Shown here: piece after piece, positions 31,964 through 37,158 of the stretch | Layout of the letters: the number at the start of each line of letters is the position of its first letter | How positions within the stretch are numbered: the stretch's first letter is position 1 | Source of the DNA: Actinomycetota bacterium | GTDB lineage: Bacteria; Actinomycetota; Thermoleophilia; Gaiellales; Gaiellaceae | Assembly (NCBI GenBank): GCA_005884575.1 | Contig: VAWW01000055.1 | Coordinates: 1-64,000 of the forward strand | Direction: 5' to 3' | Length of the DNA stretch: 64,000 nucleotides | Translations under genes and position numbers: made by a program | The notes under the pieces: generated by a model | What the model was told of the DNA's origin: nothing | What the model saw: only the letters and a program-made list of their open reading frames with translations | The model's database searches: none

Positions 31964-34840
<2,877 letters not shown>

Positions 34841-34841
<1 letters not shown>

Positions 34842-35896
34842 CAGACGACCTTGCCGTCGCGAATCTCGATCAGCTGCGCCGGCTCGCCGGGGAGGAACGA
34901 CGCGTCGGTCGCCGTGACGAGCGTCTGGCCGAGCTGCACGACGTGCCGCGCCAGGATCTCGCGGCGCGCGGGATCGAGCTCCGACAGCACGTCGTCCAGC
35001 AGCAGGAGCGGCGCCGCGCCGCTGCGCTCGGCGATCAACTCCGCCTCGGCGAGCAGGAGCGCCAGGACGGCGAGCCGCTGCTCGCCCTGCGAGCCGAAGC
35101 TGCGGAGGTCGCGCGCGCCAGCGGAGATCGCGATGTCGTCGAGGTGCGGGCCGAGGCTCGTCACGCCTCGTTCGAGATCGCGCTCGAGCCGTGCCTCGAG
35201 CGCTTCGCGCGACGGCGGCTCCCCGGTGTAGCGAAGCTCCGCCTCCGGGAGGCCCAACTCGCCCGCCCGCTCGGCGAACGGCGGCGCGAGCCGCGCGAGC
35301 GCTTCGCGACGGGCCGCCACGAGCTCGGCCCCGAGCGCCACGATCTGCGCCGTCCACGGCTCGACCGCGTCGCGGGAGGAGAAGCCCGCGGCGACGCGGC
35401 GAAGTGCCGCATTCCGCTGCGAGACGGCGGCGGTGTACTCCGAGGGGAGCGCAGCGCGGGCCGGCGAGAGTCGGCCGAGCGCGCGGTCGAAGTACGCGCG
35501 CCGCACGATCGGCCCGCCCTTGACGACCGAGAGCCGGTCGGGAGTGAAGACCAGCGTTGCAACCTCCGAGCGGAGCTGCTCGGCCCCGCGGAGCGGCGCA
35601 CCGTTGACGGACGCTCTTTTCCCCCGCCCTGTGGACAGATCGACACGAATTTGCATCGGTACCTGGTACCGATGTCCGTCCAACTGCACCCGCGCGGCGT
35701 CCGCCCCGAAGCGGATCAGCTGCGCGTCGTTGCGGGTGCGCGGTGAGAACCCCTGTGTGCCCACGTGCAGCGACTCGAGCAGGTTCGTCTTGCCCGCGCC
35801 GTTCGGGCCGGTGACCAGGACGACGCCCGGCTCCAGGCGCTGTTCGAGCCGCGCGTACGAGCGGAAGTCGACGAGCGAGACCGTCTCGACGATCAG
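34841..35896 (-). CDS. recF: DNA replication and repair protein RecF (CTG start)
   Basis: A 351-residue SMC-like ATPase that helps load RecA at gaps. Walker A, GPNGAGKTN, is encoded at 35809-35783, and the signature and Walker B are in FGSQGEQRLAVLALLLAE and PLLLLDDVLSELD. The first usual start codon in frame (GTG 35764) lies after Walker A and so cannot be right. Upstream the protein reads LIVETVSLVDFRSYARL, the expected RecF N-terminus, beginning at CTG 35896, one base after the dnaN stop. No ATG, GTG or TTG occurs in frame before the next upstream stop. Residues around HRYQVPMQI are encoded by a dispersed palindrome. Confidence 0.92.
35652..35676. repeat. GGTACC-T-GGTACC palindrome, copy 3, inside recF
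   Basis: ATCGGTACC-T-GGTACCGAT (35655-35673) is a perfect 9-bp inverted repeat. It is the best copy of the element also seen at 1669-1692 and 18361-18378. It is in frame inside recF and encodes HRYQVPMQ, in a surface loop region where RecF proteins vary, consistent with a tolerated insertion. Confidence 0.75.
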
Positions 35897-35897
35897 C

Positions 35898-36995
35898 TCA
35901 GCCGGGCAGCCGGATCGGCATCACGAGGTACGTGAAGTCGTCGCTCTCGCCCTGGAGCACGGCCGGCCGGAGCGGGCTGATCAGCTTGAAGCGCACCTCG
36001 TCGCCGGTGACCGACTCGAGCCCGTCGCGGAGAAAGTCCGCGTTGAACCCGATCTCGAGCGGGTCGCCTGTGAAGGGCGCCGGCAGCGACTCCTTCGACT
36101 CGCCGACCTCGTGGGTCCGCGCGGTGACGGTGAGCTCGCCTTCCGCGAAACGAAGCTGGAGCGGTGATGTGCGCTCGATCATCACGGCCGCTCGGCGGAC
36201 GACATCGAGGAGTTCGTTGCGCGGCAGCGCGAGCTCGTGCTCGAAGCTCTCGGGCAGCAGCTGGCGGTAGTTCGGGAACTGGCCGTCGATGCGGCGGGTT
36301 GTCATCGCGATGCCGTCGACCGAGAAGACGACCTGGTTCTCGTGCACCCCCAACTCGACCTCGTCGCCCGACTGCGCGATCCGCGTCAATTCCTGCAGCG
36401 CTCGTGCCGGGATGATCGCCTCGAGCTCGGGCACCTGGCCGCCGAGCTCCGTCTCCTTCACCGACAACCGATAGGAGTCGGTCGCCGCCATGACGAGCTT
36501 GCCGGCCTCGAAGCGGGCAAGGATTCCGGTGAGCACCGGGCGCGACTCGTCGCGCGACGCAGAACGCGCAACCCGGTTGACCGTCTCGAGCAGTGCCTCG
36601 CGGTCGACCGTGAAGGTCGTCACCGCGTCGAGCTCGGGCAGTCGAGGAAAGTCCTCCGCGTTATAGGTGTGCAGTGTGTAGCTCGCCGACCCGGAGGTCA
36701 CGTGCACGACCGACTCCTCGGGCCGGTGCTCGATCTCGACCTCCTCCGAGGGCAGCAGCTTCGCAAGCTCCACGAGCCGCCGGCCGGGAACGACAACTGC
36801 GCCGTCACCCTCGATCTGGGCCGGGACGGTCGTCCGCAGCGAAAGTTCCATGTCCGTTGCCGCGAGCTGGAGGTCGTCGCCGGCGGAGCGGAGCAGGATC
36901 CCCGAGAGGATCTGCACCGTCGCGCGTGTCGAGACCGCGCGCGAGACGACCGCAAGACGCTGGACGAGATCGTCGCGCCGGACGGTGATCTTCAT
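35898..36995 (-). CDS. dnaN: DNA polymerase III sliding clamp (beta subunit)
   Basis: The 365-residue beta clamp, three repeated domains, a standard length. Recognisable regions: MKITVRRDDLVQRLAVVSRAV, LLRSAGDDLQLAATDMELSL, RPVLTGILARFEAGKLVMAATDSYRL (split here at DSYRLS) and the C-terminal YLVMPIRLPG tail. The ATG at 36995 is chosen over one 11 codons upstream because it is the family start. It is 163 bp from dnaA and one base from the CTG of recF. Confidence 0.96.
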   Translation of the reverse strand: MKITVRRDDLVQRLAVVSRAVSTRATVQILSGILLRSAGDDLQLAATDMELSLRTTVPAQIEGDGAVVVPGRRLVELAKLLPSEEVEIEHRPEESVVHVTSGSASYTLHTYNAEDFPRLPELDAVTTFTVDREALLETVNRVARSASRDESRPVLTGILARFEAGKLVMAATDSYRLSVKETELGGQVPELEAIIPARALQELTRIAQSGDEVELGVHENQVVFSVDGIAMTTRRIDGQFPNYRQLLPESFEHELALPRNELLDVVRRAAVMIERTSPLQLRFAEGELTVTARTHEVGESKESLPAPFTGDPLEIGFNADFLRDGLESVTGDEVRFKLISPLRPAVLQGESDDFTYLVMPIRLPG

Positions 36996-37158
36996 CCCTG
37001 TGCCCACTGGTACTTCAGTTTCAATCATTTAAAAGAACCTCGTCGTAGTAATAGGGAGTGTGGACGGCGGGGAAGACGGTGAGCAGCCGCATGGCTGCGG
37101 GCCCCGGGACCTGTATGCGAAGTGGGGACAAGAGCCGGTTCTCAACAGGCCGCTGCCG
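36996..37158. other. dnaA-dnaN intergenic region
   Basis: This 163-bp gap has an A/T-rich patch (37024-37058), one TGTGGA core (37059-37064) that matches the inverse DnaA-box core TCCACA, a near match at about 37120-37130 (GTGGGGACAAG) and a GCAGCC-GCAT-GGCTGC hairpin at about 37084. It could carry the dnaN promoter and secondary DnaA sites. Box density is lower than in the region upstream of dnaA. Confidence 0.5.

Follow-up and report, generated by a model that had tools for sequence, protein, structure and literature searches.

The infC gene, which encodes initiation factor 3 (IF3), has a conserved non-AUG start codon (ATT or ATC) that limits its expression as part of an autoregulatory loop acting through IF3. 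In Streptomyces, the start codon of sigR is GTC in 32 of 34 species and GTT in the other two, and initiation at the GTC start is repressed by IF3, keeping SigR below RsrA; replacing it with a canonical start leads to overproduction (PMC5472188). In mycobacteria, CTG is not enriched as a start even when a Shine-Dalgarno sequence is present (0.03%; PMC4633059), and CUG starts are very rare, one survey having found that 2 of 61,358 ancestral AUG starts had switched to CUG (PMC5622118). Non-canonical starts and the coupling of a stop codon to a following start are both already known. Our literature search found no paper on a recF gene with a CTG start and none on start codons in the Gaiellaceae, the family considered here.

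We analyzed a 64,000-nucleotide stretch of DNA, hereafter the window, which is contig 67 of a draft Gaiellaceae genome (4.16 Mb in 130 contigs). The features of the dnaN-recF region are as follows, with the assignment of the gene downstream of recF being one that we presume from its position and sequence.

34392..34841, minus strand: gene downstream of recF, presumably dciA (DciA/DUF721-like); its ATG overlaps the recF stop as TGATG
34841..35896, minus strand: recF coding sequence read from the proposed CTG start; 351 codons plus a TGA stop, matching TIGR00611
35762..35764, minus strand: first canonical in-frame start in recF, GTG at codon 45, which would give a 307-residue product lacking Walker A
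35786..35809, minus strand: RecF Walker A motif GPNGAGKT, codons 30-37
35894..35896, minus strand: proposed recF start codon, CTG, shared by 79 of the 88 distinct family loci and marking the point where coding constraint sets in
35921..35923, minus strand: in-frame TGA upstream of recF; ATG, GTG and TTG are absent from here to codon 45
35898..37028, minus strand: dnaN (beta clamp), matching TIGR00663 with 299 bits; it starts at ATG 37028 or ATG 36995

The dnaN-recF gene order that helps to identify members of the RecF family is present in the window. On the minus strand, the dnaN stop (TGA, 35900-35898) is followed by a single G (35897) and then by the CTG (35896-35894), so a first-pass annotation of this DNA was correct in placing CTG 35896 one base past the dnaN stop. 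That annotation had also claimed that Walker A lies upstream of the first ATG, GTG or TTG in frame, which is borne out by the positions of the motif (codons 30-37) and of GTG 35764 (codon 45), and that start codons are absent between the CTG and the upstream in-frame TGA. We likewise found zero ATG, GTG or TTG among the eight codons that separate TGA 35923-35921 from CTG 35896. For RecF to retain Walker A, translation therefore has to start before GTG 35764. Read from the CTG, the 351-residue protein matches the TIGR00611 RecF equivalog model with 262 bits (cut-off 172) over model positions 2-339; read from GTG 35764, it scores 206 bits and matches model positions 46-339 only. For the neighboring dnaN, also on the minus strand, either of two in-frame ATG codons 11 codons apart (37028 and 36995) could be the start, and the conserved N-terminus MKIT starts at the second of these (36995).

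Alignment of recF from relatives had been proposed in the first-pass annotation as a check on the CTG start. The gene is contained in 91 of the 103 genomes of the family, many of which are incomplete drafts and mostly metagenome assemblies, and its N-terminal region could be read in 92 loci, of which 88 are distinct. These 88 loci have CTG at codon 1 in 79 cases, GTG in 4, CTT in 2, and CTC, CTA and GTT in 1 each, while ATG or TTG occurs in none (0/88). The recF frame is open and of full length throughout the family. Of the 79 CTG loci, 50 lack any ATG, GTG or TTG from the upstream in-frame stop to codon 24, and in several loci that stop immediately precedes the CTG or lies 1 (L133), 2 (L012, L122, L129, L130 and L140) or 3 codons (L032) before it, the immediate case being L121 (0 codons); these loci leave no room for a different upstream start. 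That most of the genomes are draft metagenome assemblies might suggest that a sequencing or assembly error hides an ATG or GTG, a possibility raised by the first-pass annotation itself as one that could overturn its claim. We rejected this explanation as vanishingly improbable, given that the CTG is shared by 79 distinct loci, including L022 in G018, a genome assembled as a single contig, and L158 in G094, which has five contigs.

The loci in which codon 1 is not CTG often have another start: GTG takes its place in four loci from at least three lineages, and both CTT loci have a TTG four codons upstream. In L017, codon 1 is CTA because the dnaN stop became TAA, producing a CTAA overlap. In L017, as in L170 (GTT), both CTG and canonical starts are missing from this position and from the nearby frame, and codon 1 of these two loci represents either another rare start or a draft error. 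About 30 extra bases precede the usual codon 1 in L148, where the dnaN stop still carries the CTGA; this lies in frame with recF and gives RecF a 10-codon N-terminal extension. Other families of the order have an ATG or GTG start at recF, except in a few genes whose N-termini could not be aligned, which indicates that CTG is a derived trait of the Gaiellaceae. By this comparison, the CTG start has been held through the evolution of about 30 genera of the family.

To locate the edge of the translated region, we profiled pairwise differences in the 22 loci with dnaN-recF gaps of at least 20 bases. Upstream of codon 1, we observed about 0.65-0.70 differences per base at all codon positions. The values drop abruptly at codon 1 (0.17, 0.00 and 0.26 at its three positions) and take on a protein-type pattern over codons 2-24 (0.27, 0.18 and 0.46). 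As differences of ~0.7 give way suddenly to a coding pattern at the CTG, we place the edge of the translated region at codon 1. These data bear on two further proposals, namely that translation of RecF begins inside the gene, at GTG 35764, to give a protein without Walker A, and that recF is decaying. A gene finder limited to ATG, GTG and TTG would indeed call that GTG; however, codons 2-24 are under protein-type constraint, Walker A falls inside the constrained part of the protein, and the frame remains open and full length in the family. An internal start and a pseudogene are both rejected by this coding constraint, and we regard them as extremely unlikely.

A second candidate is the adjacent codon 2, which is ATC in 70 of 88 loci, and ATC is listed as a rare start in translation table 11. 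However, codon 2 changes to GTC, CTC, AGC, ACC, GCC or CGC in several loci while codon 1 mostly stays CTG or GTG, and the CTG itself is kept where codon 2 has become GTC, CTC, AGC or ACC. Furthermore, base 2 of codon 1 is invariant in 83 loci, whereas base 2 of codon 2 varies. Because codon 2 varies while the CTG mostly stays, we rejected initiation at ATC or another adjacent non-standard codon, which we judge very unlikely.

We also compared codon 1 with leucine codon usage in the rest of the protein. Where the dnaN-recF spacing leaves the codon free, 34 of the 37 leucine codons at this position are CTG (92%). Over all RecF leucines, the most used codon is CTC (54%), with CTG at 31%, and no other conserved leucine column exceeds about 70% CTG. 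By this comparison, the predominance of CTG at codon 1 is beyond what codon usage predicts. Both marks of a non-canonical start are found at this gene, namely that the conserved RecF N-terminus has no canonical start and that the same codon is kept across relatives. Together, these analyses provide good support for CTG as the start codon of recF, kept across the family. The claim of the first-pass annotation that recF relies on CTG initiation is accordingly supported, since this is the sole reading that fits the family comparison.

The dnaN stop adjoins recF in 86 of 88 family loci, 44 of which overlap by 4 bases (CTGA in 43, CTAA in 1) and 42 of which have gaps of 1-187 bases; in the window the gap is 1 base, so that stop and start lie close together, as expected of coupled genes. 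Since dnaN and recF overlap or almost touch, and the recF frame is open far into dnaN in some loci, RecF might be made as a DnaN-RecF fusion through frameshifting or readthrough. The spacing between the genes nevertheless takes many values in all three frames, in-frame stops separate them in many loci, and conservation is absent upstream of codon 1 in the gap loci. The variable spacing and the stops led us to reject a fusion, which is exceedingly improbable.

In the overlap loci, recF starts on the base that ends the final dnaN codon, which is usually the glycine codon GGC (Gly in 39 of 44). Changing this codon to GGA, GGG or GGT would keep the glycine and give recF an ATG, GTG or TTG, and the base is still C in 44 of 44 loci. 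Of the 42 gap loci, 30 have C at the corresponding dnaN position (p = 7e-5 against the overlap loci, Fisher, with shared ancestry uncorrected), and the stop varies too. Mapped onto a RecF tree by parsimony, the junction passes from one class to the other (overlap or gap) 22 times, with well-supported branches forcing at least 13 of these switches, and codon 1 has 6 changes; the parsimony counts and the Fisher value serve as guides, not as exact probabilities. CTG is also kept in 34 loci without an overlap. Conservation of the CTG solely through the dnaN stop is therefore rejected as the whole answer.

Upstream of recF, pairing with the anti-Shine-Dalgarno sequence is weaker than in shuffled sequence. 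Given this weak pairing, and the overlap or short distance between the CTG and the dnaN stop in most loci, we infer that initiation at the recF CTG is a reinitiation by ribosomes that have terminated on dnaN. In a separate observation, GC-rich hairpins (for example, GGCGTCGC-AAC-GCGACGCC) occur a few bases before the recF start in the spacer loci L003, L006, L007, L116, L117 and L138.

We propose that recF would be fed mainly by ribosomes that have just finished dnaN, with little or no help from a Shine-Dalgarno sequence, and that formyl-methionine carried by the ordinary CAU initiator tRNA would start RecF at CTG 35896. The C of the CTG would make this initiation inefficient, so that a small fraction of the terminating ribosomes restart, and the inefficient restart would in turn hold the ratio of RecF to DnaN low. 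Taken as a whole, this reading, in which RecF starts at CTG by dnaN-coupled reinitiation and the weak start keeps RecF low relative to DnaN, is in our judgment highly probable on the comparative evidence. In E. coli, RecF binds DnaN, its normal level is 18-68 molecules per cell, and its over-expression is extremely toxic, with replisomes being destabilized (PMC10287930). We infer that low RecF dosage is probably the reason that CTG has been kept over the synonymous routes to ATG, GTG or TTG. Such a requirement cannot be strict, because GTG is tolerated in four loci.

We found that recF is not the only gene of the family with a recurrent CTG start. A metallophosphoesterase gene (TIGR00282; G018 C1:177040, minus strand; L298-L327), unlinked to recF, was read in 30 family loci, its codon 1 being CTG in 18, GTG in 8, TTG in 2 and ATG in 2, and 11 of its 18 CTG codons are CTGA overlaps with a long upstream frame. 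In four loci (L118, L124, L127 and L146), the aligned start of dciA is CTG (two loci), ATC or ACG, and the 25 codons before it and the 5 after it include no canonical start; two of the four have an ATG or TTG far upstream in an open frame. These non-canonical dciA starts come after a GGAGGT-like stretch. For dnaN and gyrB, a canonical start is always nearby. The implication in the first-pass annotation that the CTG start is an oddity of one gene in one genome thus stood as to the start and failed as to its uniqueness, since the start is family-wide and at least one other gene shares it.

Two surveys of open reading frame pairs, comparing ~0.8 Mb of the window genome with 1.2 Mb of G018, resolved a minority of pairs and are noisy because of spurious GC-rich reading frames. 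Among their pairs, we could accept just one CTG/CTG pair, recF, as a start and saw one clear CTG/GTG pair, the TIGR00282 gene, against 62 pairs with an aligned canonical start. Among 4-base overlaps between coding frames, G018 (1.2 Mb examined) has ~7 and G000 (0.83 Mb examined) has 4 of the CTGA type without a nearby ATG, GTG or TTG, counts that are an upper bound because the frames are unconfirmed as genes; ATGA, GTGA and TTGA overlaps exceed 130 in each of these stretches. A handful of other coding-like frames at CTGA (in G018 C1:1-1200000 and the G000 pieces) are candidate CTG-start genes. CTG starts are probably a small but regular class in the Gaiellaceae.

The initiation apparatus offers nothing that points to a change. 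An initiator-type anticodon stem-loop, GGGCTCATAACCC (CAU), is present in most family genomes, the copy in the window genome being a tRNA-Met(CAT), and IF3 is present in all 35 of the 35 more complete family genomes. We did not find a dedicated initiator tRNA with a CAG anticodon; the CAG version of the pattern occurs in six genomes, approximately as expected by chance for a 13-base pattern. Judged from these genes, the initiator tRNA and IF3 look ordinary.

Because the unlinked TIGR00282 gene also uses CTG, part of the CTG pattern may reflect general permissiveness. It is a plausible alternative, falling somewhat short of an even chance, that CTG is the recF start and is kept for reasons other than low RecF dosage: the family would simply tolerate CTG, a CTGA overlap would be adequate and reinitiating ribosomes would be indifferent to the codon. 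The mixture of CTG, GTG, TTG and ATG at the TIGR00282 gene, the two dciA loci with CTG and no canonical alternative near the aligned start, and the four recF loci with GTG instead of CTG are consistent with such tolerance. However, recF has few other NTG codons (4 GTG, no ATG or TTG), unlike the TIGR00282 gene, dnaN and gyrB; these remain rare even though one synonymous dnaN change would supply them in most overlap loci; and CTG is kept outside the overlaps too. Returning to the reading in which CTG limits RecF, we tentatively extend it to the family, at slightly less than even confidence: CTG may serve the Gaiellaceae as a regular fourth start in a handful of genes, among them recF and the TIGR00282 gene; it would occur mainly at CTGA overlaps and would have evolved to give low output of the downstream gene and, at recF, a fixed low ratio of RecF to clamp.

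Few non-canonical bacterial starts have been characterized experimentally, and CTG is rare enough as a start to be passed over by gene-finding software. In the Gaiellaceae, recF, an ancient and widely conserved repair gene, has held CTG across about 30 genera, at a position where one synonymous change in the neighboring gene would give a canonical start in most overlap loci. The comparison strongly indicates that evolution can preserve a weak start, and it makes the scarcity of RecF relative to the clamp a directly testable idea. It also has a practical consequence, as gene finders that accept ATG, GTG and TTG alone would give shortened versions of RecF and of at least one further Gaiellaceae protein, and the RecF ATP-binding site would be lost from the annotation.

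Among known systems, the recF start resembles that of Streptomyces sigR in being a conserved non-canonical start of an actinobacterial gene that lies beside an operon partner that matters when in excess. It differs in that sigR has a strong ribosome-binding site (AGGAGGTG), a position upstream of its partner and a GTC start, whereas Gaiellaceae recF has little or no Shine-Dalgarno sequence, lies downstream of its partner and starts with CTG; furthermore, control by IF3 has been shown for sigR. Like infC, recF has a conserved non-AUG start, although RecF, unlike IF3, is not an initiation factor. The 4-base stop-start geometry of ATGA and GTGA termination-reinitiation overlaps is shared by the CTGA found in half of the family, but the recF start is CTG and is kept also where the overlap has been lost. 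Finally, the gene order dnaA-dnaN-recF-(dciA)-gyrB is like that of the E. coli dnaA-dnaN-recF-gyrB operon, in which, unlike in the Gaiellaceae with their CTG, recF starts with ATG (PMC10287930).
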